A DNA stretch of 64,000 nucleotides from Nesterenkonia alba DSM 19423 (lineage in GTDB: Bacteria > Actinomycetota > Actinomycetes > Actinomycetales > Micrococcaceae), in assembly GCF_000421745.1 (NCBI RefSeq), contig NZ_ATXP01000001.1, positions 124,001 to 188,000 of the forward strand, given 5' to 3'. Shown here one piece after another: positions 12,611-45,937 of the stretch (position 1 is its first letter; each line of letters starts with the position of its first letter). A program made the position numbers and the translations under genes. Under the pieces are notes generated by a model. It searched no databases and was not told where the DNA came from. It was given only the letters and a program-made list of their open reading frames with translations.

Positions 12611-12627
12611 TTCTACACCCTGTAGAA
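12611..12627. promoter_or_regulatory. TTCTACA-N3-TGTAGAA operator before the copper genes
   Basis: TTCTACA-CCC-TGTAGAA is a perfect dyad with 7-bp arms. Its right arm overlaps the -10 box TAGAAT (12623-12628), so a bound protein would block the promoter. The identical arms recur upstream of hemQ at 45919-45935. A TACA/TGTA core is typical of operators of the BlaI/MecI/CopY family; no such regulator is encoded in this window. Confidence 0.7.
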
Positions 12628-12628
12628 T
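12623..12628 (+). promoter_or_regulatory. -10 box of the His-rich membrane protein gene
   Basis: TAGAAT is followed by 7 nt and the ATG at 12636, with no ribosome binding site, indicating a leaderless transcript that starts inside or beside the operator. Confidence 0.55.
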
Positions 12629-12635
12629 CCGGGAC

Positions 12636-13265
12636 ATGTCAGCCTCCGCGGTCTCCGGTGCAGCGCGTGTGCTGCGGGGTGGGCTCACCGCCTCGGCCGC
12701 AGTGGGTTCAGCGGCCTTGGCACATACCGCAGCGGGCCACCATAGCCCCCATGGCGTCGTCGTACTCTTGGCGTTGCTGGTGGCCGTGCCGATCAGTACT
12801 GCCTTGTCCTCGGTCCGCCTCAGCCGCAGGCGCCTGGCCGCAGCCGTGGTGGCCAGCCAGGCACTGCTGCACGGATTGTTCGCCCTCTTCCCCGCCGCAA
12901 CGGCTTCCTCTGTGCAGGTCAGTTCACCGGCAGCCGGACACGCCCACCACGAAAGCCTCAGCCTGGTGTCGGCAGCTGGGGGCCCCACCGGGGCAGCCGA
13001 ACACCTCGCCCATTCCAGTGATGCGACCATGCTCGCTGCTCACGTGCTGGCCGCCGCGGTGACCTACGCGGTATTGCGCCATGGCGAAGTGCTGCTGGCC
13101 GCATTGGCCGATGCACTCGGTGTCAGCCCCGCGGTCCTGGAGGTACCGGACAAAGCTCCTACACCGAGCCCACGGCTGCCCCAGTGGCCCGCGGTGGTTC
13201 CCCTGCGTGATGAACTCTGGTTGGGCCGCAGTCCCCGTACTCTGCGCGGTCCACCGGTCTGGTGA
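12636..13265 (+). CDS. His-rich four-helix membrane protein of unknown function, copper-associated
   Basis: I do not recognise a named family. The 209-residue product has about four hydrophobic segments (roughly 12-32, 38-58, 64-86 and 128-150). Three histidine clusters lie in or beside loops: HTAAGHHSPH near 30, HAHHE near 100 and HLAHSS near 120. Such clusters suggest metal binding on the outer face. A basic, proline-rich tail follows. ATG 12636 is chosen because it lies 7 nt after a TAGAAT box; an upstream extension would be buried in the terminator hairpin. The gene precedes a CopC-domain gene by 74 bp and is likely co-transcribed with it, so a role in copper handling is inferred. Confidence 0.7.
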   Translation: MSASAVSGAARVLRGGLTASAAVGSAALAHTAAGHHSPHGVVVLLALLVAVPISTALSSVRLSRRRLAAAVVASQALLHGLFALFPAATASSVQVSSPAAGHAHHESLSLVSAAGGPTGAAEHLAHSSDATMLAAHVLAAAVTYAVLRHGEVLLAALADALGVSPAVLEVPDKAPTPSPRLPQWPAVVPLRDELWLGRSPRTLRGPPVW

Positions 13266-13339
13266 GGACCCCACCCTCCCGTGCGGCTTTCAGGTACCGC
13301 CTGAGCCGCAGAACCATCACCAGACCAAAGGACACACCA

Positions 13340-14014
13340 ATGACCATCACCTACAACACCCCTGCCCGCATGCCCGCACTCCTGACACTGAGTGCAGGTG
13401 CGGCCCTAGCCCTCGGTGGGCTGAGCATCACCCCCGCCTACGCCCATGACACGCTCATCGCCTCCACCCCGGAAGAGGGTGAGGTCCTGGAGGAATCCCC
13501 CGATGAGGTGGTGCTGGAATTCTCCGGTGCCGGCCTCACCGTGGGGGATGCCGTCACCAATGACATCTGGGTTCTCGACACCGACGGGGAGAACTGGGCC
13601 TCCGAGGATCCCGCTGAGGTCGACGGCAACATCATGAGCACCGATATCCCCGAACCATTACCGGACGGGGAGTATGAGGTCCTCTACCGGGTGGTTTACT
13701 CCGACGGGCACGACGAAGAGCTCAGCTTCAGCTTCGAGGTCGAGGCCGGGGAGGAAGACGCCACCGAGGAAGACGAGCAGGACGAGGCCACCGAGGAGGA
13801 GACCTCCGAAGCGGCCACCGAAGAGGAGACCGACACCGCGGAGGAGGACACTCCCGCAGAAGAGGAAACCGAGTCCCCTCAGACCGAACAGACCGCTGAG
13901 GAGTCCGAGACCTCAGCGTGGATCCCGTTGGCGATCGGTGCCGGTGTGCTGGGCCTTCTCGCCGTGGTCGGCGTGCTCATCCGCCACAAGATGAAGGGCA
14001 CCACCGAGGACTGA
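13340..14014 (+). CDS. CopC-domain copper-binding protein, membrane-anchored
   Basis: The 224-residue exported protein has a signal peptide ending at about AYA-H, so the mature N-terminus would be the His used by CopC proteins to bind Cu(II). The CopC domain covers about 35-140 and includes STPEEGEVLEESPDEVVLEFSG and VVYSDGHDEELSFSFEV, whose DGH supplies a second conserved His. It is followed by a 55-residue Glu/Thr-rich acidic linker (about 140-195), one transmembrane helix (about 197-217) and a short basic tail. ATG 13340 has AAAGGA at suitable spacing; longer readings lack one. It is probably co-expressed with the His-rich membrane protein upstream under the TTCTACA operator. Confidence 0.88.
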   Translation: MTITYNTPARMPALLTLSAGAALALGGLSITPAYAHDTLIASTPEEGEVLEESPDEVVLEFSGAGLTVGDAVTNDIWVLDTDGENWASEDPAEVDGNIMSTDIPEPLPDGEYEVLYRVVYSDGHDEELSFSFEVEAGEEDATEEDEQDEATEEETSEAATEEETDTAEEDTPAEEETESPQTEQTAEESETSAWIPLAIGAGVLGLLAVVGVLIRHKMKGTTED

Positions 14015-14074
14015 GGCCAACGGCCTCCATTCCATGAGCTGACCCGCTGCATGCGGTGTCCTGAATGCGGTGCC

Positions 14075-14121
14075 CTGAGTGCGGCGGTTGAGTGGCGTGT
14101 TGTGCTCGCCGCCGCACTCAG
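14075..14121. terminator. Bidirectional hairpin between copC and the methyltransferase gene
   Basis: A 13-bp perfect stem (14075-14087 with 14109-14121, arm CTGAGTGCGGCGG) encloses a 21-nt loop. It lies between convergent genes and its right arm includes the stop codon of the minus-strand gene. No T-run is present. Confidence 0.55.
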
Positions 14122-15533
14122 ACCGGTTCCACCACAGCGGCGAAACGCTCCGGGCCGATGCGTACCAGAATGAAGACAGCGTGGCGGGGTTCCCTGCCCC
14201 GCCGCTTCTTCGGCAGAATGGTGGACCGCAGCTGTTCGGGTACGACGTCGACCCCCCGCTTTTTGATCTCCACACTGGTGATCTGATGTTCTGCGCACCA
14301 GCGGGCCAGCCGCTTGGGGGAGTAGGGCATCACCTCCAGGATCCGGTAGCCGCGCGCCAAGGGAGCTTCCCCTGCCGGCGCCGAGGTGTGGGGGAGGCTG
14401 AAGTAGGCGATGTGCTCATCCAGTAGTCGCCCTCCCCAGGTTTCGGCGAGGTCAGCGACGAGACCGGCACGGATGACCGCCGGATCCGGTTCGTAGAGCA
14501 CACCGGTAAGCCCGTCGGGGCCGGCCGGGGCAGGCTCGGGGCCGGAACCGAAGTCCTCGGTCGAGGTCAGCTCGGCACTGTGGTGGGTATTCGGCTGCTG
14601 GATGTTCGGCCCAGGCTGTTTCTCACGCGGTGTAGTGGTTCGGCTAGTCAGCACCGTAGCGGCCCGACGGATGAGCCGACTAGTGTCTTCGGGCTCCGCG
14701 GAGTGTTCAGAGTCTGCTGCGGGCGCGGAGCCTGCTGTATGGCGGGGCAGAGTTCTCCGTCGGCAGAGAGCATTGAACCACAGGACGACCTCCACCAGCT
14801 CACCATCGATGCTGACCCATTCGGCCTCGCAGTCAGCGGGGATCACCTCGTGGGGGATCCCGGGACCCAGCTTGACCCCCAGGGGTACACCGTTGGCCGC
14901 CACGGCGGTGATGAAACTCAGCGGCGGGGAGAATTCCTCGGGATTCCATAGGCGTGAGCGCCGGTTCCGGCGCGCCGGGTCGAGCCACACACCCCACGGG
15001 GCCTGAGCCTGCTCCTGACGCGGTACGGGATCCGTCTGGCGCACCAGCCCATGCGCGGCCGCCCACTGCTCGGCTGTGGTGTGCAGTACCTCCGCCTGCG
15101 GGAAGGGGGCCAGGTTATGGGCGGCAATCCACGCCGTGTGTGCATCGGCCTCCACGGCTGTGACCTCCAGTCCAGCCTCGGCCAGTGCCATGGCATCGGC
15201 CCCGAGCCCACACCCTAAATCCGCCACACGAGGGACCCCGGCTGTGGCGAACCGTTCAGCATGTCGCAGTGCTACAGGCCAGCGGGTGGCCTGCTCCAAT
15301 CCGGTGGGAGTGAAAAGCATGCGCTCGGCCCGGTCACCGAACTTGCCGCGGGCATCCCGGCGCAGCCGGGCTTGGGTGAGCACGGCGGCGACCGTCTGTG
15401 GATCCCACCCCTGTTTCCGCAGTGTGATGTTTGTCTCGTCAGCGGCGTCCTCGGTGTATTCCTCCAGTGAATCCAGAAGCTGCAGTGCCTGGTCAGAGAG
15501 GGCGGGATGGTGCGGATCGCCGGTATCAACCAC
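14118..15533 (-). CDS. Class I SAM-dependent methyltransferase with THUMP-like C-terminal domain
   Basis: The 471-residue protein has an N-terminal helical region (1-95) followed by a Rossmann methyltransferase core. The SAM-binding motif VADLGCGLGADAMALAEAG is at about 100-120, and VTAVEADAH and GVWLDPARRNRR (DPAR motif) follow. The C-terminal region ends in a THUMP-like segment (TSVEIKKRGVDVVPEQLR). The family is widespread in actinobacteria, probably acts on RNA, and its substrate is unknown. Between the domains lies an unusual disordered stretch of about 90 residues (ETTS/Pro/Gln-rich, about 285-370). The GTG start at 15533 lies 6 nt after a TACCCT box, so it is probably leaderless. Confidence 0.82.
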   Translation of the reverse strand: MVDTGDPHHPALSDQALQLLDSLEEYTEDAADETNITLRKQGWDPQTVAAVLTQARLRRDARGKFGDRAERMLFTPTGLEQATRWPVALRHAERFATAGVPRVADLGCGLGADAMALAEAGLEVTAVEADAHTAWIAAHNLAPFPQAEVLHTTAEQWAAAHGLVRQTDPVPRQEQAQAPWGVWLDPARRNRRSRLWNPEEFSPPLSFITAVAANGVPLGVKLGPGIPHEVIPADCEAEWVSIDGELVEVVLWFNALCRRRTLPRHTAGSAPAADSEHSAEPEDTSRLIRRAATVLTSRTTTPREKQPGPNIQQPNTHHSAELTSTEDFGSGPEPAPAGPDGLTGVLYEPDPAVIRAGLVADLAETWGGRLLDEHIAYFSLPHTSAPAGEAPLARGYRILEVMPYSPKRLARWCAEHQITSVEIKKRGVDVVPEQLRSTILPKKRRGREPRHAVFILVRIGPERFAAVVEPV

Positions 15534-15539
15534 GGCCTC

Positions 15540-15545
15540 AGGGTA
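15540..15545 (-). promoter_or_regulatory. -10 box of the THUMP-like methyltransferase gene
   Basis: TACCCT on the minus strand, then six bases (GAGGCC) and GTG 15533. This is the same leaderless arrangement as at 4307 and 8213. Confidence 0.45.
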
Positions 15546-15630
15546 TCGCGGGGTGATGCCGCGCCGGCGATGTCACGGAACGACATCGACCTTGCAGCCT
15601 CATTAGGGAAGAGCTAGGGTTCTATTCAGC

Positions 15631-15649
15631 TTAGGACAGGCTAAGTCGA
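15631..15649 (+). promoter_or_regulatory. DtxR/IdeR-like iron box before the siderophore-binding gene
   Basis: TTAGGACAGGCTAAGTCGA matches 13 of 19 positions of the DtxR/IdeR consensus, including TTAGG and AGGCTAA. It is embedded in a wider dyad with arms ATTCAGCTTAG and CTAAGTCGAAT. It lies 27 bp upstream of the ATG, so iron-dependent repression is likely. Confidence 0.65.
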
Positions 15650-15675
15650 ATAATGACCAAGGAAGGTACCCTTCG

Positions 15676-16773
15676 ATGAGCATGACCACTGCACCCGCTG
15701 AGGAGAAGAACCGTTTCCTCCAGCTTCTCTCCGTGGTCGCTATTGGAACTCTGGCGCTGAGCGCCTGCGGTGACAATGGCGACGACGACGCCGACGAGGA
15801 CACCGACACAGAAGTCACCGATGCTGACAGCAACGGTGATGACAACGACGCCGAGGACAATGGTGACGACGCCGAAGCTGGCGGCCTCACCATCGAGGAT
15901 GACCACGGCACCCACGAGATTCCGGAGACCCCGGAGTCCATCGGAGCCTTTGACAACCGTTCCTTCCGCACGCTGGAAGCCTTCGGTGTGGAGCTCAGTG
16001 TGGCCGCCCGTTCCCTGATGGATGAGCAGACCCACGGTTACGCCACCGATGAGGACATCCTCGACACCGGTAACCACCGCGAACCGGACCTCGAGCAGAT
16101 CATCGCCGCTGAGCCCGACCTCATCATCAACGGCCAGCGCTACAGCCAGTACTACGAGGACATCATCGATGTCACAGAATCCGCCGGCTACGACACCGTG
16201 GTCCTGGAGTTCGATGAAGCCGTCAACGACCCGGACACCTTCATCGAGGGGCTCATCGAGAAGACGGAGAAGCTCGGCGAGGTCTTCGGCGAGCAGGAGA
16301 CCGCCCAGGAGATCATCGACGAGTTCGAAGCCGAGGTGGACCGTGTCACCGAACTCTACGACGGAGAGTCCACAGTGATGGGTCTGATGACCTCCGGTGG
16401 TGACATCCAGTACCTGGCTCCAGGTACCGGACGGACCATCGGCCCACTGTTCAACGCCTTTGACCTGGTGCCCGCCCTGGAACAGGACGCCGAAGATGAG
16501 GCCCACGGTGATGACATCTCCGTAGAAGCCATCGCCGACGCTAACCCAGACTGGCTGCTGGTGACCGACCGCGATGCCCGACTGGACTCCGACGACCCCG
16601 ACTACCAGCCGGCTGATGAACTGCTCGCCGAATCCCCGGCCCTGCAGGAAGTCACCGCTGTCCAGGAGGGCAACATCGTCTACACCCCGGATGACATGTA
16701 CCTCACCGAGGACATCCAGGCCTACACCGAGTTCCTCCGCGACTTCGCTGACGCCCTGGAGGACGCCCAGTAA
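15676..16773 (+). CDS. Siderophore ABC transporter substrate-binding lipoprotein (YclQ/FatB-like)
   Basis: The 365-residue exported lipoprotein binds a ferric siderophore outside the membrane. A signal peptide ends in LALSAC (lipobox Cys about 34), followed by an Asp-rich acidic linker to about 75. The periplasmic-binding-protein fold starts at LTIEDDHGTHEIPETPESIGAFD. The pattern DTGNHREPDLEQIIAAEPDLIINGQRY resembles YclQ/CeuE/FatB proteins, which bind catecholate-type ligands such as petrobactin; the ligand here is inferred. AAGGAAGG lies at good distance from ATG 15676. An iron box covers the promoter. The downstream hairpin at 16782-16838 separates it from the permease genes, consistent with higher expression of the binding protein. 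Confidence 0.87.
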   Translation: MSMTTAPAEEKNRFLQLLSVVAIGTLALSACGDNGDDDADEDTDTEVTDADSNGDDNDAEDNGDDAEAGGLTIEDDHGTHEIPETPESIGAFDNRSFRTLEAFGVELSVAARSLMDEQTHGYATDEDILDTGNHREPDLEQIIAAEPDLIINGQRYSQYYEDIIDVTESAGYDTVVLEFDEAVNDPDTFIEGLIEKTEKLGEVFGEQETAQEIIDEFEAEVDRVTELYDGESTVMGLMTSGGDIQYLAPGTGRTIGPLFNAFDLVPALEQDAEDEAHGDDISVEAIADANPDWLLVTDRDARLDSDDPDYQPADELLAESPALQEVTAVQEGNIVYTPDDMYLTEDIQAYTEFLRDFADALEDAQ

Positions 16774-16781
16774 GACGCCGA

Positions 16782-16838
16782 GGCCGGTGCCTTGATCACG
16801 GTGCCCCGTTCCCTCACCTGAGCGAGCGGGGCACCGGC
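16782..16838 (+). terminator. Hairpin with two competing 5' arms after the siderophore-binding gene
   Basis: CGGTGCCCCG (16799-16808) pairs perfectly with CGGGGCACCG (16827-16836). An upstream arm GCCGGTGCC (16783-16791) can instead pair with GGCACCGGC (16830-16838). The two structures exclude each other, so this may be a partial terminator with some regulatory flexibility. Confidence 0.5.
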
Positions 16839-16876
16839 ATGAAGGCAGCGCATTCGACGCGTGTGGCAGAACACCC

Positions 16877-16895
16877 ATAGCATTGCCTTACCTTC
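16877..16895 (+). promoter_or_regulatory. Second DtxR/IdeR-like iron box before the permease genes
   Basis: ATAGCATTGCCTTACCTTC matches 12 of 19 positions of the iron-box consensus, with the GCCT-ACCT half best preserved. It lies 44 bp before the first permease ATG and suggests that the permease-ATPase genes have their own iron-regulated promoter. Confidence 0.5.
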
Positions 16896-16938
16896 GTTTC
16901 ATCACTCGCCCGTTGCCGATCGAGACCCGGAAGCCCCT

Positions 16939-17982
16939 ATGACTACCACCCTGCGGCAGGACGTCTCCCAGACCAGCCGCGACGTCCTCGTCGATGACGG
17001 GCGACGGCACCGCCGACGCCGGCTGTGGACTCCCGCATTCCTCGTCGCCATCCTCGTCACCCTGGTCTTGCTGGTGCTATCCCTGCTGACCGGGCAGTTC
17101 GATGTCTTCGGTGGCGAAGACTGGGAAAACTTCTGGATGTTCGGGATCACCCGGATTCCACGCACTGTGGCGCTGGTGCTGGCCGGGGCCTCCATGGCGA
17201 TGTGCGGGGTCATCATGCAGCTGCTGACCCAGAACCGTTTCGTCGAACCCACCACCACCGGAACGACCGAGTGGGCCGGACTGGGACTGATCCTGGTGAT
17301 GTGGCTCTTCCCCGGGGCGAGCCTCTTTGCCCGGATGTCGGGTGCCACCTTCATGGCGTTCATCGGCACCATGGTCTTCTTTATGTTCTTACGCCGGGTG
17401 TCGCTGAAGTCCAGCCTCATCGTGCCGATCATCGGCATCATGCTCGGTGCGGTCGTCTCCTCCTTCACCACGTACCTGGCGCTGATGACCGACCATTTAC
17501 AGACCCTAGGTATCTGGTTCGCCGGATCCTTCACCGGGGTCATCCAGGGCCGCTACGAACTGATGTGGATCGTGCTGGCGGTCACCGTGCTGGTGTTCAT
17601 CGTCGCGGACCAGTTCACCGTGGCCGGGCTCGGCAAAGACATGGCCACCAATGTGGGACTGAACTACGCCTTCGTGCTGTTCATGGGCACCGCCATGGTC
17701 GCGGTCGCCACCGGGGTCACCGCCACTGTGGTGGGAACCCTGCCGTTCTTGGGGCTGGTCGTGCCCAATATTGTCGCCCTCTTCCGCGGTGATGACCTGC
17801 GCAGTAACCTCCCCTGGGTGTGTCTAGTGGGCATCTGCGTGGTCACCGTCTGCGACCTCATCGGCCGGACCATCCGAGCCCCCTTCGAGATCCCCGTCGG
17901 GCTGGTACTCGGACTGGTCGGCGGCGTCGTCTTCGTCGGACTGCTGCTGCGGCAGCGCCGAAAGGGAGGGCTGGCCAGTTGA
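16939..17982 (+). CDS. FecCD-family iron-siderophore ABC permease (YclN-like)
   Basis: This 347-residue inner-membrane permease is one half of the translocation channel. After a basic N-terminal tail it has about nine to ten hydrophobic helices. Typical FecCD landmarks are RIPRTVALVLAGASMAMCGVIMQLLTQN and TVVGTLPFLGLVVPNIVALFRGDDLR, the latter containing the ATPase coupling helix. ATG 16939 is preferred over an upstream GTG at 16861 because the extra residues would be translated from the iron box region. Together with the next two genes it forms a YclN-YclO-YclP-like set. The second permease follows after 52 bp. Confidence 0.88.
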   Translation: MTTTLRQDVSQTSRDVLVDDGRRHRRRRLWTPAFLVAILVTLVLLVLSLLTGQFDVFGGEDWENFWMFGITRIPRTVALVLAGASMAMCGVIMQLLTQNRFVEPTTTGTTEWAGLGLILVMWLFPGASLFARMSGATFMAFIGTMVFFMFLRRVSLKSSLIVPIIGIMLGAVVSSFTTYLALMTDHLQTLGIWFAGSFTGVIQGRYELMWIVLAVTVLVFIVADQFTVAGLGKDMATNVGLNYAFVLFMGTAMVAVATGVTATVVGTLPFLGLVVPNIVALFRGDDLRSNLPWVCLVGICVVTVCDLIGRTIRAPFEIPVGLVLGLVGGVVFVGLLLRQRRKGGLAS

Positions 17983-18034
17983 GTGAGCAGATACCTGCCG
18001 GGTCTCCAGGATCCCGCGAGGAGACGAGTCAACG

Positions 18035-19072
18035 ATGATGTTTAAGACCGCTGAGCAGCAGGCACCACAGCAGCGCCACTCCAAGCCGATCACCGACCGC
18101 AAGCACATGCGTAACTATGTGCTGATGATGATCCTGCTCGGGGTGCTCTCCGTCGGGTTCACCATCGGCATCATGGGCTACAACAATCCCGCGGAGTTTG
18201 GCTCTGATGGATGGTGGGTCATCGCCGATATGCGACGTGACTCCCTGCTGACCATCGGTGTGGTGGCCCTCTGCCACGCCATGGCGACCATCGCCTTCCA
18301 GACCGCAGTGAACAACCGGATCATCACTCCCGGAATCATGGGCTTCGGGTCCCTCTACACGGCGATCCAGACGATGTTCGTCTACGTCTTCGGCATGGCC
18401 GGGGTGACGATGCTCGTCGGGGTGCCGCAGTTCTTCCTGCAGATGGCCATGATGATGCTGCTGGCCACTGCGCTCTACACCTGGCTGCTCAGCGGGAAGT
18501 TCTCCAATGTGCACATCATGCTGCTGGTCGGTGTGGTCATCGGCGGAACCCTGGGGTCACTGTCGAACTTCATGCAGCGGATGCTCACCCCCAGTGAGTT
18601 CGATGTACTCACCGCCCGGCTTTTCGGCAACATCTCCAACGCCCGTGCCGAGTACCTGCCGTATGCGATTCCCATCGCCCTGCTGGTCACCGGGTTCCTG
18701 TGGGTGCGGGCGCATAAGCTCAATGTCATCGCCCTGGGGAAATCCACCGCGCTGAACCTCGGGGTGAACTACAAACGCGAGCTGATCCTCATCCTGGCCC
18801 TGGTCTCGGTGCTGATCTCCATGGCCACTGCCCTGGTGGGCCCGATGATGTTCCTCGGCTTCCTCACCGCGATCCTGGCCTACCAGTTCGCCGACACCTA
18901 CTCCCACCGCCTGCTGTTCCCCATGGGGTTCCTCTTCGGCTACGCGATCCTCTCCGGTAGCTACTTCATCCTCCGGCACGTCTGGGACGCCGGGGGAGCG
19001 GTGACCGTGATCGTCGAGCTCATCGGCGGCACCGTGTTCCTCATTTTCATCCTGCGAAAGGGCCGCCTGTGA
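18035..19072 (+). CDS. FecCD-family iron-siderophore ABC permease (YclO-like)
   Basis: The 345-residue second permease subunit forms a heterodimeric channel with the preceding FecCD protein. It is nearly all transmembrane helices after a 35-residue hydrophilic start. The coupling region GPMMFLGFLTAILAYQFADTYSHRLLFPMGFLFG lies near 255-290, where FecCD proteins contact the ATPase. The motif NNRIITPGIMGFGSLY corresponds to the early conserved N-R-I-T-P-GI segment. A GAGGAGAC stretch precedes ATG 18035; a later ATG (M24) is possible. The stop overlaps the ATPase gene start by 4 nt (GTGA). Confidence 0.87.
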   Translation: MMFKTAEQQAPQQRHSKPITDRKHMRNYVLMMILLGVLSVGFTIGIMGYNNPAEFGSDGWWVIADMRRDSLLTIGVVALCHAMATIAFQTAVNNRIITPGIMGFGSLYTAIQTMFVYVFGMAGVTMLVGVPQFFLQMAMMMLLATALYTWLLSGKFSNVHIMLLVGVVIGGTLGSLSNFMQRMLTPSEFDVLTARLFGNISNARAEYLPYAIPIALLVTGFLWVRAHKLNVIALGKSTALNLGVNYKRELILILALVSVLISMATALVGPMMFLGFLTAILAYQFADTYSHRLLFPMGFLFGYAILSGSYFILRHVWDAGGAVTVIVELIGGTVFLIFILRKGRL

Positions 19073-19824
19073 TTACTCTCACCGACGTCCAGAAGGACTA
19101 CAGCGACTCCGTCCAGATCGGACCGGTCACCACCGAGATCGAATCAGGTGGCATCACCGCCCTAGTGGGCCCCAATGGGGCGGGTAAGTCGACCATCCTC
19201 ACCATGATTGGCCGCCTGCTGGACATCGACCAGGGCCAGATCACCGTGGCCGGGCACGACGTCGTCAACACCCCGTCAAAAGCGATCGCGAAAATCCTCT
19301 CGGTGTTGCGTCAGGAAAACCACTTCGTCACCCGGTTGACCGTCCGGCAACTGGTCGGCTTTGGCCGCTTCCCCCATTCCGGAGGCCGACTGACTCTGGG
19401 GGATGAGAAGTACATCTCCGAGGCGATCGACTTCCTCAACCTCACCGAACTGGAGAACCGCTACCTCGACCAGCTCTCCGGGGGGCAGCGGCAACGCGCC
19501 TATGTGGCCATGGTGTTGGCCCAGCAGACCGACTACGTGCTGTTGGATGAACCACTGAACAACCTGGACATGCAGCATGCCGTGCAGATGATGAAGCAGC
19601 TGCGCCGTGCCGCCGACGAATTGGGTCGCACGATCGTCATCGTGCTGCACGACATCAACTTCGCTGCCCACTACTCGGACAAGATCCTCGCGATGAAGCA
19701 CGGTCAGGTCGTCAAGCACGGCACCCCAGAAGAGATCATGCGCAATGAGGTCTTAAGCGAGATCTTCAACACCGAAGTCAACGTCATTGACGGGCCCAAC
19801 GGCCCCCTGGCGGTCTACTACTGA
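19069..19824 (+). CDS. Iron-siderophore ABC transporter ATP-binding protein (YclP-like)
   Basis: This 251-residue cytoplasmic ATPase energises the siderophore importer. Walker A is GPNGAGKST (about 35-43), the signature is LSGGQRQRAYVAMVLAQ (about 138-154), Walker B is YVLLDEPLNNLD and the switch histidine is in VLHDINFAAHYSD. The NNLDM wording and 250-residue length match the YclP/FatE-type subgroup. Translation starts at a GTG overlapping the second permease. The operon ends here: 62 bp later begins a separate TVP38-type gene with its own -10 box. Confidence 0.9.
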   Translation: MITLTDVQKDYSDSVQIGPVTTEIESGGITALVGPNGAGKSTILTMIGRLLDIDQGQITVAGHDVVNTPSKAIAKILSVLRQENHFVTRLTVRQLVGFGRFPHSGGRLTLGDEKYISEAIDFLNLTELENRYLDQLSGGQRQRAYVAMVLAQQTDYVLLDEPLNNLDMQHAVQMMKQLRRAADELGRTIVIVLHDINFAAHYSDKILAMKHGQVVKHGTPEEIMRNEVLSEIFNTEVNVIDGPNGPLAVYY

Positions 19825-19882
19825 ACTGTCCCCTTCTTCAGCCGGCTACCCCTCAACCACCGGGGTCAGCCCGCCGACGGCG

Positions 19883-19888
19883 TAGCAT
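19883..19888 (+). promoter_or_regulatory. -10 box of the TVP38/VTT-domain gene
   Basis: TAGCAT is followed by seven bases and ATG 19896, again without a ribosome binding site. The box itself contains the alternative ATG at 19887, which is therefore unlikely to be used. Confidence 0.45.
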
Positions 19889-19895
19889 GGCCGGG

Positions 19896-23145: not shown

Positions 23146-23402
23146 CGCAGACCCCCCGCCGCCTGAGTCCAGGACCCCGGACCGGGCCGACCCCACAGCC
23201 CGTGGGCATTGGCGTGGAGCCGGTGACGCCGCTGGGTGGTGCGGTCAGTGGGACCGGTGGTGCCGGCGTCGTCGTCCCCACCTCCATCGGCCGAGGCCAG
23301 ACGAGCGATGACCGCCACCACGGCGGCAGTCTCCTCGGTGCTCAACTCCGGCCCGCGGATATCCAGCAAGGCAGTCTCCGAGGTAGTCAGTTGGTGTGCC
23401 AT
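23142..23402 (-). CDS. accE: Acyl-CoA carboxylase epsilon subunit (AccE)
   Basis: This 86-residue protein has the two hallmarks of the actinobacterial epsilon subunit: an N-terminal LDIRGPELSTEETAAVVAVIARLAS helix and a C-terminal arginine-rich, tryptophan-containing tail ([18 protein letters not shown]). Epsilon subunits strengthen the alpha-beta interaction of acyl-CoA carboxylases. The ATG at 23402 overlaps the stop of a 41-codon ORF as TAATG, and its own stop overlaps maf as ATGA. In most relatives accE directly follows accD; here the extra small ORF, derived from a duplicated junction, lies between them. Confidence 0.85.
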   Translation of the reverse strand: MAHQLTTSETALLDIRGPELSTEETAAVVAVIARLASADGGGDDDAGTTGPTDRTTQRRHRLHANAHGLWGRPGPGSWTQAAGGLR

Positions 23403-25239: not shown

Positions 25240-25245
25240 GCAGCT

Positions 25246-34799: not shown

Positions 34800-38092
<3,293 letters not shown>

Positions 38093-38152
38093 CCGTGCCT
38101 GTGATTTCTCTCGGCACTGCGTGCAGACTGGCCGAGTGAGGCGGGAGGGTGC

Positions 38153-39220: not shown

Positions 39221-39358
39221 CGGTCGTTCACCTTCCTTATGACCCATCGCGTGCTGTTCCGGGGTGACCGGAACCTCATGGGATCAACGTAGAAACCGCA
39301 GGTCAGCGCTGGCGTAAAGGCAGCTGGAAAGTGGCTTGACGCCAATGGTGCCCAGGGC

Positions 39359-40831
39359 TCAGGCGCGGCGCAACTGCAGGTGGGCCACTGCGGGGAGACG
39401 CTCGACGCTGAACTCCCCGGGCCGGTGGTGGCGGCAGAACCCGCCTTCGGGGACCTGCTGCAGGTAGGCGGCCATCTGTGCCAGCTCCGCCGCGGAGAAC
39501 TCCTCAGCCTTGCGCCGCTGGGCGCGTGTGGGCCGCTGCGATTCCACAGCCGATTCCACCCGCAGCCCGAAGAGGGTCTCCAGTGCGGAGACATAATCCT
39601 CGGCCCGCCCTTCGGCGGCCAGCTCCCGGGCCCGCACCGTGGGGGTGTGGAGGAGCTTCCGGACGATCCGGCGGGTGGCGAATTCGACCTCTTCGGAGGC
39701 GGCGGTGCACCCGTGTTGGCCGCGGACCTTCTCCATCTCCGCGTCCATGAGCTGCTGAACATGTTTGCGGAGGGTGACGATGGCGTCGTCGGCGGTGCGT
39801 TCCCGCCGCTCGGTGAGGTAAGCCTCCGCCTGGGAACGGACCACATCGCGGGCTTCCTCCACGGCGTCCCGGGTCTCCTGCGGCGCCGCCAGCTTCACTG
39901 ATTCCAGGGTGATGAGTTCGACGCCTTCGAGGTCAGCCACCTCGGGTGCAAAATCGTGAGAGAGGGCCAAATCGATCAGCAGCAAAGGGGTGTGGCGCTG
40001 TTCCAATCCGGCCAACGATTCGATCTCCCCGGCGGTGATCTGCCGATTGCCACCCGAACAGCCGATGATGACGTCGGCACGGCGGAACGCCTCCGGTAAT
40101 TCCTCCATGGCCAGTGGGCGGGCTCGCCCACCCCGGGCGGCCAGAATGTCAGCACGTTCAGCTAAGAACTGCTCGGCTCGCCCGGAGCCGGAGAAGACGG
40201 CCACATCGCCGGTGTGCCGCTCAGCCAACTGCGCCAGCGAGGTGCCCGCATAGGCGCCGGTGCCGATGAGGACCGCGTTGGCTTGCGGATAGAACTGCTC
40301 GGAGCCACCGCGCATATCCCCGGCGATATCCAGTGCCACGGAGACGATCGACCGACCCGTACTGCCCAGGGAGGTGCGAGTACCGACCTCCTTGGCGGTG
40401 CGGGTGGCGGTCTCGAACAACTTGGTCAGATTCCCGGAGACAGTCCCGGCAGCCTGCGCCTCGGCCAGGGACCGACGGACCTGCCCGGCGACTTCGCGTT
40501 CCCCGATGACGGCCGAATCCAGACCCGCGCCCACCTCGAACAGATGGGTCACGGCCTCGTCCTCCACCAGGGTTTTAAAGGACTCGGCGACCACGTCACG
40601 ATCCAGACCGCTGGAGTCGGCCACAGCGTCGATGAGTGTCTGTTTGGCGGCCTCGAGATCTTCTTCACGGTCCGAAGGGGTCTCGGCGTAGATCTCCAGA
40701 CGGTTGCACGTGGCCAGCGTGACGGCAGGCAGGGACACAGAAGCGGCGACGTCGGCCGCTCCTGTGGACAGGGTCCCGACCGTCTCCAAATCGAGGTCGG
40801 AGTGGGATGCGACAAGTGAAAAGAGAACCAC
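39359..40831 (-). CDS. hemA: Glutamyl-tRNA reductase HemA
   Basis: HemA reduces Glu-tRNA to glutamate-1-semialdehyde, the committed step of haem synthesis, using NADPH. The 490-residue product begins VLFSLVASHSDLDLE, has the catalytic cysteine in TLATCNRLEIYAET (about 50), GVGLDSAVIGE-like wording (GAGLDSAVIGEREV), the NADPH-binding VLIGTGAYAGTSLAQL and DVIIGCSGG, and a C-terminal dimerisation helix with the TRRIVRKLLHTPTVRARELA motif. GTG 40831 is used because the family starts there and TAGAAT lies 10 nt upstream; a longer upstream reading has no homology. It is transcribed divergently from hemE. Confidence 0.93.
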   Translation of the reverse strand: MVLFSLVASHSDLDLETVGTLSTGAADVAASVSLPAVTLATCNRLEIYAETPSDREEDLEAAKQTLIDAVADSSGLDRDVVAESFKTLVEDEAVTHLFEVGAGLDSAVIGEREVAGQVRRSLAEAQAAGTVSGNLTKLFETATRTAKEVGTRTSLGSTGRSIVSVALDIAGDMRGGSEQFYPQANAVLIGTGAYAGTSLAQLAERHTGDVAVFSGSGRAEQFLAERADILAARGGRARPLAMEELPEAFRRADVIIGCSGGNRQITAGEIESLAGLEQRHTPLLLIDLALSHDFAPEVADLEGVELITLESVKLAAPQETRDAVEEARDVVRSQAEAYLTERRERTADDAIVTLRKHVQQLMDAEMEKVRGQHGCTAASEEVEFATRRIVRKLLHTPTVRARELAAEGRAEDYVSALETLFGLRVESAVESQRPTRAQRRKAEEFSAAELAQMAAYLQQVPEGGFCRHHRPGEFSVERLPAVAHLQLRRA

Positions 40832-40834
40832 GGC

Positions 40835-40858
40835 GTAGGATATTCTACCGTCTTCTAC
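40835..40858. promoter_or_regulatory. hemA/hemE divergent promoter with two TTCTAC repeats
   Basis: TTCTAC occurs at 40843-40848 and 40853-40858, exactly 10 bp apart. The first copy overlaps the hemA -10 box (TAGAAT, minus strand, 40842-40847) and forms an everted dyad GTAGGATATTCTAC (40835-40848). TTCTAC is also the outer part of the dyad arms at 12611 and 45919, so the same regulator could act here. Confidence 0.4.
40842..40847 (-). promoter_or_regulatory. -10 box of hemA
   Basis: TAGAAT on the minus strand lies 10 nt before GTG 40831, giving a leader of at most a few bases. Confidence 0.45.
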
Positions 40859-40912
40859 GTCATGTCGAAGTCGCCGTCGGCACAATGTTCGCTCAGAGGA
40901 CACAATGGGGGT

Positions 40913-42010
40913 ATGACGACCACGCCTGAGGCCATGACCTCCCACCCGCTGCACACTGGAGTCACCGCCGACGCCCCGCTCATCACCGAGTATCTGGGGG
41001 GTAAGACCTTCACCGGGGAGGCAGTCCGCCCGGCACGGCGGCCGGTGTGGTTCATGCGGCAGGCCGGGCGTTCCCTGCCGGAGTACCGGGCGCTGCGGGA
41101 AGGGACCACCATGCTCGAGGCCTGCCTGAAACCAGACATGGTGGCAGAAATCACTCTGCAACCGGTACGTCGGCACGACGTCGACGCCGCCATCTTCTTC
41201 TCCGACATTGTCGTCCCCCTGCGCCTGGCCGGGGTGGACGTGGAGATCGAGCCCGGGGTGGGGCCGGTGTTGAAGAACCCGGTCCGCAGCGCCGCCGACG
41301 TCGCCGCGTTACCGGATCTCGATCTGAAGGATTTCGAGGTCATCAGTGAAGCGGCCGCCCAGTGCGTGAGTCTGCTGGGCCCCCGACCGTTGATCGGTTT
41401 TGCCGGGGCACCCTTCACCCTGGCTGCCTATATGGTCGAAGGCCGGCCAAGCCGGGACCATCTGGGTCCGCGCACTATGATGCACGCCGACCCGCAGACC
41501 TGGCACGCCTTAGCGGAGTGGACCGCCCGGGCTTCCGGACTGTTCATGCGTGCCCAGGTGCTGGCCGGTGCCTCCGCCGTTCAGCTCTTCGACTCCTGGG
41601 CCGGTTCACTGGGCCGGGCCGACTACGCCGAACGGGTCATGCAGCATTCCGCGGCCGCCTTCGCCGAAGTGGCCGACCTCGGGGTTCCCGCAGTGCACTT
41701 CGGCACCGGTACCGGGGAGATCCTCGACCTGATGCAACGGGCCGGGGCGGATGTCATCGGTGTGGACTACCGGCTCGACCTCGCCGAGGTGGCTACTCGG
41801 CTGCCCGGAACCCCCCTCCAGGGCAATATTGACCCGGCCTTGCTCACAGCCCCCTGGGAGGTGCTCGAAGCCCATGTGCATACGGTCATTGAGGCCGGCT
41901 CCCGAGCCCCTGGCCACGTGGTCAACCTCGGTCACGGAGTGCCCCCGGAGACCGACCCCGATGTGCTGACCCGCGTGGTGGAGTTGGTGCACTCACAGCC
42001 CGTGAACTAG
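40913..42010 (+). CDS. hemE: Uroporphyrinogen decarboxylase HemE
   Basis: HemE (365 residues) removes four carboxyls from uroporphyrinogen III to give coproporphyrinogen III. Signatures are RPVWFMRQAGRSLPEYRALR (substrate-binding Arg), IIFFSDIVVPL-like AAIFFSDIVVPLRLAGVDVEIEPGVGP, IGFAGAPFTLAAYMVEG and ALQGNIDP-like TPLQGNIDPALL near the end. ATG 40913 follows a CACAAT-N6 arrangement and a GGGGG stretch; an in-frame ATG at 40862 would overlap the divergent promoter. The last 18 bp overlap the convergent SorC-type gene. Confidence 0.94.
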   Translation: MTTTPEAMTSHPLHTGVTADAPLITEYLGGKTFTGEAVRPARRPVWFMRQAGRSLPEYRALREGTTMLEACLKPDMVAEITLQPVRRHDVDAAIFFSDIVVPLRLAGVDVEIEPGVGPVLKNPVRSAADVAALPDLDLKDFEVISEAAAQCVSLLGPRPLIGFAGAPFTLAAYMVEGRPSRDHLGPRTMMHADPQTWHALAEWTARASGLFMRAQVLAGASAVQLFDSWAGSLGRADYAERVMQHSAAAFAEVADLGVPAVHFGTGTGEILDLMQRAGADVIGVDYRLDLAEVATRLPGTPLQGNIDPALLTAPWEVLEAHVHTVIEAGSRAPGHVVNLGHGVPPETDPDVLTRVVELVHSQPVN

Positions 42011-42967
42011 CTCATTGGCCGAATCCCGGTCCAGCACCAGCACGCTCACCAGTGAGGCGGCAAGTGCCCCGCGCACCGCGGTGACCTTATGCGGCCCGTT
42101 GACCACTCCGATCCGGTGGGGGATCCGCCGCAGTTCATCGGGAAGCATGCCCGTGGATCGGCGGTTGAGCTCCACATCCCGCCAGGAGCCGTCGCCGCGG
42201 AAGAAGACGGTGCACACATCGCCGACCACACCCTCGGCGGTCAGGCCGTTGAGATCCTCTCGGTTCAGGTACCCCTGAGCGTAGACCTGGGACACCGGGC
42301 TGCTGTGGAACGTGCCGATACCGAAGATCGCCGCAGTGCAGCGCCGCTGCAGGTCCAGCATGCGGCGGATGGTGCGCTCCTGCCACATCGCGGCCTTGGT
42401 GCTGGCATGGTCGAAGAACGGTGGCACCGGCAGCAGCTCCGCCGCACCGGAGTAGGCCGCGGCAATCTCCTCGGCGGCGGTGCGATATCCACCGCGTTCC
42501 CGGGTGCCTAGCGGGTCCGGGTGAATGGCGCCGTTGAGCCCCACCACGGTGAGGTCCTCGACCTCCCGGTGGGGAAGCCGCTCGGCTACCGCCGTCATCG
42601 TGTTTCCCCAGCAGGTGCCGATGACCGCCCCCGGGGTGATGAGCTCATCGAGCGCTTGGGCGGCCAAGGCCGCCACCGAGGCCGTGGTGACCGCCGGGTC
42701 CCGTCGCCGGGGCGGTTCAGCGACTAACGCCCGGACCCCGTACATCTCGTGCAGTCGATGCTCTAGTGCGCGGGAGCGGTCAGTGGGTGGATGAACACTC
42801 ACTCGGACGATGCCCCGGTTGCGAGCTTCCTGCAACAGCCGCGAGACCGTGGCCCGTGAGACCCCCAATTCTCGGGAGATCGCCTCCATCGTGCGGTCCC
42901 GCTCGTAGTACAGCTGTGCAGCCCGGAACTCCAGTCCCTCGCGGAAACTCGGTGTCACTGCGTTCAT
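41993..42967 (-). CDS. SorC/DeoR-type sugar-binding transcriptional regulator
   Basis: This 324-residue regulator has an N-terminal helix-turn-helix (MEAISRELGVSRATVSRLLQEARNRGIVRVSV, about 25-58) and a SorC-type sugar-binding domain. The latter is marked by GAVIGTCWGNTMTAVAERLP and the C-terminal RIGVVNGPHKVTAVRGALAASLVSVLVLDRDSA. Effectors of this family are phosphosugars or polyols. ATG 42967 is used; upstream extension lacks homology. It faces the GlpD-remnant and glpF genes, so glycerol or a related polyol is the most likely cue. A hairpin-forming CGTGGC/GCCACG (43009-43024) lies in the divergent promoter. Confidence 0.85.
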   Translation of the reverse strand: MNAVTPSFREGLEFRAAQLYYERDRTMEAISRELGVSRATVSRLLQEARNRGIVRVSVHPPTDRSRALEHRLHEMYGVRALVAEPPRRRDPAVTTASVAALAAQALDELITPGAVIGTCWGNTMTAVAERLPHREVEDLTVVGLNGAIHPDPLGTRERGGYRTAAEEIAAAYSGAAELLPVPPFFDHASTKAAMWQERTIRRMLDLQRRCTAAIFGIGTFHSSPVSQVYAQGYLNREDLNGLTAEGVVGDVCTVFFRGDGSWRDVELNRRSTGMLPDELRRIPHRIGVVNGPHKVTAVRGALAASLVSVLVLDRDSANELVHGL

Positions 42968-43084
42968 TGATCCCAGTATCAACGCCTCAGTGAACGTCCG
43001 TCCAAAAACGTGGCCCCCGCCACGGGGCCGCCGGTGAGATGGACCGTGTCGAGCACACCCGCTTGTGAGGAGAGGAACCGCAGC

Positions 43085-43495
43085 ATGGTCGCCGTTGCCG
43101 TGGAACTGGCTGAACGTGAGAACGCCCTCCAGCACCTGGAGGACACGATCCCCGCCGAGCCGGTGGACCTGCTGGTCCTTGGCGATGGGGAGACCGAGAC
43201 GACATTGGCTTACGACGCCGCCGCAGTCGGCTTGCGCGTGGGCCTGATCGCCTCAGGTGCCTGCATCCGGATGCCGCGGCCCTGGCCTCGGCTGGTGGGC
43301 CGGGCTCACCGGGGCGCGGCACCCTATGTGGCGACTGAAACCGACGTCGTGGGGCAGCTAACCCGCGGAGACGACGTCGTCGGCGTCATCATCCGGGATC
43401 CGCGCCGCGGCAGCCTCGCCAATGTCTTCGCCACTCGGGTGGTCTCCACCGAAGACATTCCCACGCACACCGCACTGACCACACCCATCACCTGA
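43085..43495 (+). CDS. Short remnant of a glycerol-3-phosphate dehydrogenase-like protein
   Basis: This intact 136-codon frame has a GAGGAGAGG ribosome site. Its first 80 residues follow the beginning of GlpD: an ERENALQHL helix, then PVDLLVLGDGETETTLAYDAAAVGLRVGLIASG in place of the FAD-binding pattern GGGITGAG..ALDAA..GL. The second glycine and the small residues of the dinucleotide loop are replaced (GDGETET), so FAD binding is doubtful. The last 50 residues (GVIIRDPRRGSLANVFATRVV) resemble a strand pair much later in GlpD. It looks like an internally deleted glpD kept open, beside glpF. The similarity is judged by eye. Confidence 0.55.
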   Translation: MVAVAVELAERENALQHLEDTIPAEPVDLLVLGDGETETTLAYDAAAVGLRVGLIASGACIRMPRPWPRLVGRAHRGAAPYVATETDVVGQLTRGDDVVGVIIRDPRRGSLANVFATRVVSTEDIPTHTALTTPIT

Positions 43496-43532
43496 CATTC
43501 GCCCCTACTCAACTATCGAGGAGCTGCCGCAT

Positions 43533-44273
43533 ATGGCAACTATTTTCCTGTTCGAAACGATGGGCACCGCCTTCCTGGTGCTGCTCGGCCTGGGTACCAT
43601 CGCCAACGCGATGCTCCGGGGCACCAAAGGCCAGGGGGTCGGGCTGACCTGGCTGATGATTCCCTTCGGCCTGGGTCTGGCGGTCTTCACCGGTGTGCAC
43701 GTCGCCCACGCCACCGGCGGGCACATCAACCCCGCGGTCACCATCGGCATCATGATCTCCGGGGCCGAGGAGTTCGCCCCCGGGATTGAAGCGACCTTCC
43801 CGCACCTGCTGGCCTACCTGGCTGCCCAATTCCTCGGCGCGATGATCGGCGCTGTCTGGGTGTGGCTGGCCTATAAGAACCACTTTGACGAAGAAGAGGA
43901 CCCCGCCAAGATCCTGGGGGTCTTCTCCACCGGACCCGAGCGGCGCAACCTGACCTGGAACACAGTGACCGAGATGATCGGCACCTACGTCCTGGTGCTG
44001 CTGGTGCTGCTGCTCGGCGAGACTCCCGCGGCCCTCGGGCCGCTGTCGGTGGCCCTGGTCGTGGTGGTCATCGGTATCGGTCTCGGTGGTCCCACCGGCT
44101 TCTCCATCAACCCGGCCCGTGACTTCGGGCCCCGCATCATCCACGCCATCCTGCCCATCCCCAATAAAGGCTCCAGCGACTGGGGATACTCCTGGGTCCC
44201 GGTGGTGGGTCCCGTGCTCGGCGGAGTCTTCGCCGGCATCAGCGTCCAGATTCTCCCCCTCCTGGGCGGCTGA
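43533..44273 (+). CDS. glpF: Glycerol facilitator/aquaglyceroporin (MIP family)
   Basis: This 246-residue channel has six membrane helices and two NPA half-helices: GGHINPAVT (about 66-74) and SINPARDFGPR (about 189-199). The Asp after NPAR marks the glycerol-conducting branch of the family, so passive glycerol uptake is the likely role. ATG 43533 follows GAGGAG at good distance. It lies 37 bp after the GlpD remnant and is probably co-transcribed with it, under the divergent SorC-type regulator. No glycerol kinase is in the window. A strong terminator follows. Confidence 0.9.
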   Translation: MATIFLFETMGTAFLVLLGLGTIANAMLRGTKGQGVGLTWLMIPFGLGLAVFTGVHVAHATGGHINPAVTIGIMISGAEEFAPGIEATFPHLLAYLAAQFLGAMIGAVWVWLAYKNHFDEEEDPAKILGVFSTGPERRNLTWNTVTEMIGTYVLVLLVLLLGETPAALGPLSVALVVVVIGIGLGGPTGFSINPARDFGPRIIHAILPIPNKGSSDWGYSWVPVVGPVLGGVFAGISVQILPLLGG

Positions 44274-44307
44274 TAGCCCGGCGTCCCTGCCCCAGGATTC
44301 CGCCGCT

Positions 44308-44349
44308 GAGGGCGGCTGCACCCTTGATACGGTGCGGCCGCCCTCTTTT
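44308..44349 (+). terminator. Intrinsic terminator after glpF
   Basis: GAGGGCGGCTGCA (44308-44320) pairs with TGCGGCCGCCCTC (44333-44345) with one G-T pair, then TTTT. It is the best classical rho-independent terminator in the window. Confidence 0.8.
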
Positions 44350-44530
44350 CTGTGTGCTTTCTCTTGGTGCGTTGCTCGGCACAGTCCCAGGGTCCCGGCG
44401 GATCCAGGGCGGAGGATCTGGCCTTGTGCCCTCAGAGGGGGCGGCATGAGGGTCTGCGGCGCCGGCGGCCGGTGAGAAGATGTTCACTCCCGCTGCCGGA
44501 GCGCGATCACCTCAGGGCAGAATGGTGGCC

Positions 44531-45928
44531 ATGAGCATTGCTGTGATCGGTGGAGGGGTCGCTGGCCTCGTCGCCGCCTGGGAGTTGGCCTCCGCCGGAG
44601 CCGAGGTCGAAGTCTTCGAGGCCGAGGACCACCTCGGTGGAGCCGTCTGTGCTCTGCCGATGGCCTCCGGCCGCATCACCCTCGACGCCGGTGCCGAGGC
44701 CTTCGCCACACGCAGCCCCGAGGTGCCGCGGCTGCTAGAAGACCTGGGCCTCTCCGCTGAGATCGTCCCCCCGCACCCCGGCCCGGCCTGGCTGCAGCTG
44801 CCTGATATCGCCGGGCCCTTGCCGGCGGCCGGCGTTCTGGGGATCCCGGTGGATCCCCAAGCTGAGGATGTCATCCGGCTCATCGGCCCCGAGGCCGCAG
44901 CCCGAGCTGCCGAGGATCTGACCGCCATGATGACCTGGGGTGCCGAAGATTCCCCCACCCTGGGGGCAGTGGTCCGTGATCGGATGGGCGACGACGTCGC
45001 TGAGAAACTCGTCGCCCCGATCGCTTCTGGCGTGTACTCCACCGATCCCGATGATCTGGACCTGGCCACCGCCGCTCCGGGGCTCTATGCCGCCATGTTG
45101 TCCCACGGGTCCCTGGCCCGGGCAGCAGCGGCCATCCGCGCTGAATCCCCGTCCGGGTCCGCGGTGGCCTCCCTGCGCGGGGGTATGCACCGGCTGCCCG
45201 CCGCCCTGGAATCCCGGCTGCGGGCCCTGGGGGTCCGGCTCCACCTCAACACGCCGATGGACTCGTTGACCGACCTGGATGCACAGAAGGTGCTGCTGGC
45301 CCTGGACGGTCCGGCAGCCTCCGCACTCGCCGCCGGCACCGTGCAGGTTCCACAGCTGACCCCCCGGCCAGAGGACGACGGGGCCGAACGGGGAGTGGCC
45401 CTGGTGACGCTGGTGCTACACGCCCCAGAACTCGATGCCCGTCCGCGTGGAACAGGGATGCTTGTGGCTCGTGACGCCCCACATATCGGGGCCAAGGCGA
45501 TGACCCACATCACCGCCAAATGGGAATGGGCCTCCCGTCATCTCCATACCGCCCTGGGTGAGGGCCACCATGCCGTGCGACTGTCCTACGGGCGGATCAG
45601 TGACACCGATGGTCAGGGTCTGGGATTCTCCAGCACTGATGAGCAACTGCTTCAGGCGGCCGCTGGTGATGTGAGCGCGCTGTTCAGCGTCGACATCTCC
45701 CCAGAGTGCATCGTTGACTCCGCAGTGGTCAGATGGCAGCGCGCCCTGCCGCCCTCGGCCGCCGGACACCGCCGCCGGGTCCAGTCCTTCCGCGGGGCAC
45801 TGGCCGCACAGCGGGCCGGGTCCGGTCCGCAGCTGTGGACCGCCGGTGCGTGGTTTGCCGGCACCGGTCTGGCGCGTGTGATCCCCGACGCCCGGGAAAC
45901 AGCCCGGGAGATCCTGACTTCTACATGA
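44531..45928 (+). CDS. hemY: Coproporphyrinogen III/protoporphyrinogen oxidase (HemY/CgoX type)
   Basis: This 465-residue FAD enzyme of the HemY fold begins IAVIGGGVAGLVAAWELASAGAEVEVFEA, the dinucleotide-binding motif, and has the LGGAV and LDAGAEAF strands. Later landmarks are ASGVYSTDPDDLDLA and the C-terminal LWTAGAWFAGTGLARVIPDARETA. Because HemQ is present, the likely substrate is coproporphyrinogen III, oxidised to coproporphyrin III (CgoX role). ATG 44531 is 7 nt after CAGAAT; ATG 44522 in frame is possible. The stop codon TGA at 45926-45928 is the centre of the TTCTACA operator, so the end of this gene and the hemQ control site coincide. Confidence 0.9.
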   Translation: MSIAVIGGGVAGLVAAWELASAGAEVEVFEAEDHLGGAVCALPMASGRITLDAGAEAFATRSPEVPRLLEDLGLSAEIVPPHPGPAWLQLPDIAGPLPAAGVLGIPVDPQAEDVIRLIGPEAAARAAEDLTAMMTWGAEDSPTLGAVVRDRMGDDVAEKLVAPIASGVYSTDPDDLDLATAAPGLYAAMLSHGSLARAAAAIRAESPSGSAVASLRGGMHRLPAALESRLRALGVRLHLNTPMDSLTDLDAQKVLLALDGPAASALAAGTVQVPQLTPRPEDDGAERGVALVTLVLHAPELDARPRGTGMLVARDAPHIGAKAMTHITAKWEWASRHLHTALGEGHHAVRLSYGRISDTDGQGLGFSSTDEQLLQAAAGDVSALFSVDISPECIVDSAVVRWQRALPPSAAGHRRRVQSFRGALAAQRAGSGPQLWTAGAWFAGTGLARVIPDARETAREILTST

Positions 45929-45937
45929 TGTAGAAGT
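45917..45937. promoter_or_regulatory. TTCTACA-N3-TGTAGAA operator before hemQ
   Basis: A perfect palindrome with 9-bp arms (ACTTCTACA at 45917-45925, TGTAGAAGT at 45929-45937) surrounds a 3-bp centre that is the hemY stop codon. The inner 7-bp arms are identical to those at 12611-12627. A promoter can be placed just downstream (TTGTGC at 45938 region, TACGTA at 45959 region), so control of hemQ-hemH and genes after it is likely. Confidence 0.7.

Follow-up and report, generated by a model that had tools for sequence, protein, structure and literature searches.

A BlaI-family repressor and its probable operator at respiratory-chain, haem and cofactor genes in Nesterenkonia

A 64,000-nucleotide stretch of a 2.59-Mb Nesterenkonia assembly (the window; G000:C1:124001-188000) carries two copies of a palindrome, one before a gene set that includes copC and the other before hemQ-hemH, and our analyses make it highly probable that the core of this dyad, TTCTAC-N5-GTAGAA, is the operator of a BlaI-family repressor governing a regulon of respiratory-chain, haem and cofactor genes. 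The repressor gene, blaI, lies elsewhere in the same genome (G000:C4:88630-88971) and encodes a protein of 113 amino acids, P0001. An initial sequence-only reading had proposed that the two copies are controlled by a copper- or redox-sensing regulator that is not encoded here, which is true of the window but not of the genome; its suggestion to look for a BlaI/CopY-family gene with the dyad in its own promoter leads to P0001, which has an exact dyad 5' of its gene.

Exact copies of the longer pattern TTCTACANNNTGTAGAA lie at 12611-12627, with centre CCC, and at 45919-45935, with centre TGA, and all 14 arm bases are identical, as had been reported. The accompanying statement that there is no other copy does not hold, given a degenerate third copy at 40853-40869 in the window and many more in the genome. 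At three or fewer mismatches to TTCTACANNNTGTAGAA the window has three matches, a number reached by 0 of 100 shuffles (shuffle mean 0.38). Across the genome, the longer pattern is matched exactly at 7 places, with one mismatch at 11, and with two mismatches at 17 (8 in all for the reversed control), and because 10 of the 11 one-mismatch places differ only at the seventh arm base (26 A, 15 G, 6 T, and 1 C in the 48 half-sites of 24 sites), we regard TTCTAC-N5-GTAGAA as the invariant core. Short two-copy repeats are frequently due to chance, and chance could be invoked for two short dyads in AT-poor DNA; this explanation is vanishingly improbable given 23 exact core copies against 0.024 expected by composition and 0 in the reversed control, together with the conservation of the arms at orthologous promoters, and we consider it refuted by the genome and relative scans. 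The many chance occurrences in coding DNA that had been named as counting against a regulatory role were not seen in the genome scan, where 22 of the 23 exact copies lie outside called genes and the hemQ copy shares 10 bases with the end of hemY (the caller of open reading frames [ORFs] was our own, trained on the window, 6.7% of which is non-coding by it). Among the loci examined that have two-mismatch places lacking TTCTAC/GTAGAA, those at L025, L027, L028, L029, L031, L032, and L030:5001 fall inside called genes and were set aside as chance matches, and those at L022, L026, and L030:7111, like the hemA/hemE site described below, lie between genes.

P0001 matches the Penicillinase_R model (PF03965) with an E value of 2.5e-23 (83.1 bits against a cut-off of 22.6) and is the only protein of this family in the genome. 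By sequence, its closest PDB entry is 2g9w (E 1.8e-15), which we take to be Mycobacterium tuberculosis BlaI (Rv1846c); 1sd4 and 1okr match weakly. A 117-amino-acid gene at L017, our first guess for the regulator, turned out to be a DUF6457 gene beside moeA. In a sample of 198 genomes from the order, 33 have a close BlaI (a match at E 4.6e-30 or better), and 31 of them contain exact dyads, versus 6 of the 165 others (Fisher 7e-28, a value that ignores shared descent). A different DNA-binding protein could read the dyad with blaI as merely one of its targets; we judge this very improbable given the same co-occurrence, which is not corrected for descent, given that the dyad tracks blaI across genera, and given that several families have the dyad only at or near blaI. 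Four of the six exceptions (G062, G121, G149, and G163) have sites within approximately 6 kb of another BlaI-family gene, and the remaining two (G222 and G223) have one site each. The four, all of family f15, are large genomes with more distant BlaI proteins, and the operator may be common to BlaI paralogs.

The search for P0001 in named genomes returned 22 loci, 20 of them from Nesterenkonia or Garicola (73-87% identity) and two of them weak matches elsewhere. Of 30 Nesterenkonia genomes 28 have a BlaI ortholog, including every one of the 26 best assembled, and a dyad with at most one mismatch to the core is found 5' of blaI at all 28 Nesterenkonia loci and at all 20 named loci, two sets that overlap in species. 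Among 28 loci from the order's other genera, which show 56-63% tblastn identity, 27 have the dyad within 250 bases of blaI, several with two or three copies. Eighteen further loci have it with at most one mismatch in 17 cases, composed of 16 of 17 from family f36, which is outside the order, and the single locus within the order. At 20 more distant loci the dyad is recognizable with at most two mismatches in 9 and with three in 8, the latter mostly as TAC[T/G]AC-N5-GTAGTA, which is also the likely site at loci of family f22, a family we take to be Mycobacterium-like.

The position of blaI relative to the cytochrome bd gene cydA differs among these groups: cydA is divergent to blaI at 0 of 28 Nesterenkonia loci versus 27 of 28 loci of other genera, and at 12 of the 38 further loci. 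Based on this difference, Nesterenkonia appears to have separated blaI from cydA, and cydA appears to have retained its double operator, which is present in G000. Of three further Nesterenkonia genomes, two (G013 and G010) also keep the double operator at cydA, and none of the 18 G012 sites is at cydA. Exact sites number 1-2 in the nine f19 genomes with an ortholog, 5-8 in six genomes of g16, and 0-10 in f6; the two Nesterenkonia genomes of the 198-genome sample have 15 and 23, which suggests that the regulon grew. Three genomes of genus g18, which belongs to the same family as Nesterenkonia, have no BlaI match and contain 0, 0, and 1 sites. At one locus (L251 of G412) blaI and the gene of its membrane protease partner, a BlaI-M56 pair, lie directly 3' of a CtaG-like gene with the dyad absent upstream, which is another link of the pair to oxidase assembly.

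Both palindromes of the window are conserved at orthologous promoters. The hemQ promoter has the dyad with at most one mismatch in 27 of 30 Nesterenkonia genomes; in G016 (L286) hemQ is split into two frames in the assembly, and the dyad was looked for at the second part only. In 19 hemQ sites, identical repeats excluded, the arms are 98% identical and the centres 38%. The five genomes examined from three other genera of the family, out of the 10 with BlaI in the sample, have an exact site 46-48 bases 5' of hemQ. The copC-locus promoter has the dyad in 25 of the 30 fetched loci, or 24 of 29 distinct loci because two rows represent one locus, again with conserved arms and free centres, and a CopD-CtaG gene lies 3' of copC in 5 of the 30. 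The earlier proposal that one BlaI/MecI/CopY-superfamily regulator joins the copC set with hemQ-hemH is very probably correct, given that both promoters keep the dyad in relatives. The weaker hemA/hemE site is within one mismatch of the core in 19 and within two in 22 of 30 Nesterenkonia genomes. In 13 further genomes all 112 listed sites lie outside genes called by our ORF caller, and each of three further Nesterenkonia genomes has sites at atpB, ctaB, ctaC, resA, SURF1, sdhC, an ATP-binding cassette (ABC) gene, Usp, and a gene for an L037-type protein.

In the G000 genome, 12 of the 23 exact sites precede genes with functions in respiration, haem, copper or Fe-S supply or the gene of the regulator itself, and 11 precede other genes (target names are from Pfam and NCBIfam). 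The first set comprises the genes of the BlaI-family repressor and membrane peptidase (L034); cydA, cydB, and a CydD-like ABC protein, preceded by two sites 23 bases apart (L035); ctaC-ctaD-oxidase subunit IV (L030); a CopD-CtaG protein whose site is 330 bases away with a small low-scoring ORF intervening (L038); the haem o synthase gene ctaB (L019); SURF1 (L024); resA-ccdA-resB (L023); a SufR-like gene with sufB and sufD-like genes, divergent from an ABC transporter (L039); sdhC followed by sdhA, divergent from manC (L036); and, in the window, the gene of a His-rich protein with copC and the hemQ-hemH genes, one exact core site each. Between atpB and the ATP-synt_I-like gene beside it (L040) there is a variant, TTCTACAGAATGTAGTA, that is not an exact core. 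Exact core sites are also found before genes for Usp proteins (L033 and L042, the latter with a divergent aldolase gene), a P-type ATPase with a 176-amino-acid protein (L042), LysRS (L041), an L-lactate-type transporter divergent from DUF6457-moeA (L017), a CarD-like protein divergent from an unknown one (L021), a PNPOx-like protein (L018), a SpaA_2-matching protein of 1098 amino acids (L016), and two unknown 126-amino-acid proteins (L037 and L020). Two small family-less proteins behind the operator (L037, 4574-4954, minus strand; L022, 4515-4946, minus strand) have similar genes behind it in other genera and are unnamed members of the regulon.

This gene content bears on the proposal of the sequence-only reading that a CopY-type, copper-sensing repressor couples copper defence and haem synthesis. 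The presence of copC behind one dyad is consistent with copper sensing, as is a match of P0001 to the NCBIfam CopY_TcrY model, albeit a weak one (32 bits against a cut-off of 122). CopY repressors have a cysteine motif for Cu/Zn, and P0001 contains no cysteine. The TAC-N5-GTA spacing of the dyad is one base longer than that of the published cop operator TACANNTGTA (TAC-N4-GTA; PMC7253601), and copper genes are a minor share of the targets. On these three grounds we reject copper defence as the function and regard a copper-sensing CopY-type repressor as highly improbable; because approximately half of the sites are located before genes for respiration, haem or cofactors, a role in oxidase assembly suits the copper genes better than one in defence.

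The protein encoded after blaI, P0002 (C4:87638-88603, 321 amino acids), is an M56/BlaR-like membrane metalloprotease with four hydrophobic segments and an HExxH zinc motif (HEKTH at 197) that is present in 87 of 87 collected homologs. Its Pfam match is Peptidase_M48 and not M56, a label that we presume from position. A cysteine near the zinc site is nearly invariant (86 of 87 homologs). The membrane histidines H95 and H108 looked possible as haem ligands; they are kept in 25 of 25 Nesterenkonia rows but in only 13 and 15 of 28 order rows and 6 and 1 of 34 class rows, respectively, and this limited conservation led us to reject them. The predicted structure of P0002 is of low confidence (mean predicted local distance difference test score of 62.5) and gave no fold match below E 1, so we draw nothing from it. 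We did not identify a penicillin-binding sensor domain in P0002 by Pfam or by PDB sequence matches at E 0.1. A classical beta-lactam response, in which the pair senses cell-wall antibiotics and the respiratory genes are by-products, would agree with BlaI family membership and with the description of M. tuberculosis BlaI as the blaC repressor (PMC12565901); we consider it improbable given the lack of that domain in Pfam searches and given that the scanned genes neighbouring the sites gave no beta-lactamase match, no genome-wide beta-lactamase search having been made.

The absence of a beta-lactam sensor, together with the target set, argues for respiratory, redox or cofactor state as the signal. 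The sequences themselves show the sites and how well they are conserved, which genes adjoin them, and that the dyad is associated with blaI. It is very likely from this that BlaI binds the dyad; by analogy with characterized relatives, BlaI likely represses its targets and its release by proteolysis is plausible. In the mechanism that we propose, BlaI dimers would occupy the dyad and keep repressed a single regulon that includes blaI itself, cydABD, the aa3 oxidase (ctaC-ctaD), its assembly and cofactor genes (ctaB, SURF1, CopD-CtaG, and copC), and resA-ccdA-resB for cytochrome c maturation, and that would further include sdh, suf, ATP synthase, haem synthesis (hemA/hemE and hemQ-hemH), Usp, CarD, LysRS, and others. 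A disturbance of respiration, or of its redox, haem or copper state, would lead to inactivation of BlaI by the protease, as in BlaR1-BlaI, and the set would be released together. Perhaps the M56 protease reads redox or cofactor state directly through the nearly invariant cysteine near its zinc site. A broader proposal, which we hold tentatively and at not quite even confidence, is that the BlaI-M56 pair of Actinomycetes is at root a respiratory-state sensor anciently paired with cydAB(D), with resistance as a side branch, and that the Nesterenkonia version is a master regulator of the building of both terminal oxidases and of the supply of haem, haem o/a, copper, cytochrome c, and Fe-S clusters.

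Several observations weigh against a BlaI repressor of respiratory and haem genes. Two of the 33 close-BlaI genomes (G028 and G203) have no exact dyad, and 3 of the 20 distant blaI loci have none when searched to three mismatches. Among the 30 Nesterenkonia genomes, the hemQ dyad is absent in G007 and G041 and the hemA/hemE site is absent (beyond two mismatches) in eight, and no hemQ-labelled site is among those fetched from three f6 and two f19 genomes. The 11 sites outside the respiratory set precede genes without a clear respiratory role (Usp twice, aldolase, LysRS, CarD, P-type ATPase, and unknowns). It is also possible that BlaI activates rather than represses. A tight role in energy metabolism is further questioned by a knock-down of BlaI in M. 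smegmatis that reportedly did not raise ATP (PMC12565901).

Within the window, the first dyad, TTCTACACCCTGTAGAA (12611..12627), lies 8 bases 5' of the ATG at 12636 of a gene encoding a His-rich membrane protein of 209 amino acids with no Pfam family (12636..13265, plus strand). The ORF caller preferred a start at 12669, and tblastn matches of relatives extend to residue 5-6 in many cases. This gene is followed by copC, which encodes a CopC-domain protein (13340..14014, plus strand; PF04234, E 2.1e-17). The reported overlap of the first dyad with a -10 box is plausible by eye, but a sigma-70 consensus scan identified a promoter-like site at neither 12611-12627 nor 45919-45935. At 12627-12636 the right arm, GTAGAAT, could also serve as a -10 box, only 8 bases 5' of the ATG, which would produce a leaderless message. 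The weaker operator, TTCTACGTCATGTCGAA (40853..40869), lies between the divergent genes hemA (glutamyl-tRNA reductase; 39359..40831, minus strand; Pfam GlutR domains) and hemE (uroporphyrinogen decarboxylase; 40913..42010, plus strand; Pfam URO-D). It is asymmetric (GTCGAA arm), and many relatives share the weak arm, which gives the impression that weakness is maintained. The second dyad, TTCTACATGATGTAGAA (45919..45935), has arms of 9 bp (45917-45937; ACTTCTACA/TGTAGAAGT) and lies 60 bases 5' of hemQ, in agreement with the earlier description of extended arms just before this gene. Its TGA centre is the stop codon of an upstream ORF for an FAD oxidoreductase (44480..45928, plus strand; Pfam Amino_oxidase/NAD_binding_8) that we presume from position to be hemY-like. 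On the plus strand there follow hemQ (chlorite-dismutase family; 45996..46799; PF06778), hemH (ferrochelatase; 46801..47961; PF00762), and hemC (porphobilinogen deaminase; 48051..49070; PF01379), the last of which is possibly part of the hemQ-hemH operon based on spacing.

In a group of Gram-positive bacteria, the biogenesis of the respiratory chain and of haem appears to be run by a protein that databases name a penicillinase repressor. According to an excerpt of a 2024 review, the Actinomycetota with known regulation of this haem pathway are only two Corynebacterium species (PMC10991733). The dyad provides a single testable operator for matching haem and copper supply to oxidase synthesis, and our results caution against annotating such blaI genes as resistance genes.

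The BlaI (Rv1846c)-BlaR (Rv1845c) regulon of M. tuberculosis was reportedly described by Sala et al. 2009. M. tuberculosis BlaI binds cytochrome bd and ATP synthase promoters, its BlaR lacks the sensor domain, and the pair is under redox control by WhiB4 (PMC5473688); a transposon screen scored rv1845c as essential when haem or haemoglobin was the iron source (PMC7058343), and blaI is listed within the regulon of the iron regulator IdeR (PMC7924339). BlaI control of the ATP synthase operon has already been published (PMC5874750, PMC12565901). The Nesterenkonia system shares with that of M. tuberculosis a BlaI-family protein, an M56 partner without a beta-lactam sensor, and targeted cytochrome bd and ATP synthase promoters (two sites before cydA and one variant before atpB in G000, with atpB sites in 3 of 3 further Nesterenkonia genomes), but its set is wider, covering sdh and suf as well as haem synthesis, cytochrome c maturation, and the aa3 oxidase along with the copper and haem-a steps of its assembly. 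HrrSA of Corynebacterium glutamicum likewise places haem synthesis and terminal oxidases under shared control; it is, however, an unrelated two-component system rather than a BlaI repressor with a protease (PMC7337898). CopY/CopR belong to the same superfamily and use a TAC...GTA dyad, and the system described here differs from them in targets that are not copper export genes, in the lack of cysteine, and in a spacer of five rather than the four bases of the operator RNYKACANNTGTMRNY (PMC7253601). As in BlaR1-BlaI and MecR1-MecI of Staphylococcus aureus, the repressor gene adjoins a membrane metalloprotease gene, in keeping with the weak 1sd4 and 1okr matches; unlike in those systems, no penicillin-binding domain was found here and the targets are respiratory. 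In open-licence PMC texts we found no paper that connects BlaI to hemQ, to haem synthesis, to copC or to the assembly of the aa3 oxidase. Compared with these systems, what we describe looks like a real regulon and a wider version of the known BlaI regulon, of which the haem, copper, and aa3 extension looks new.

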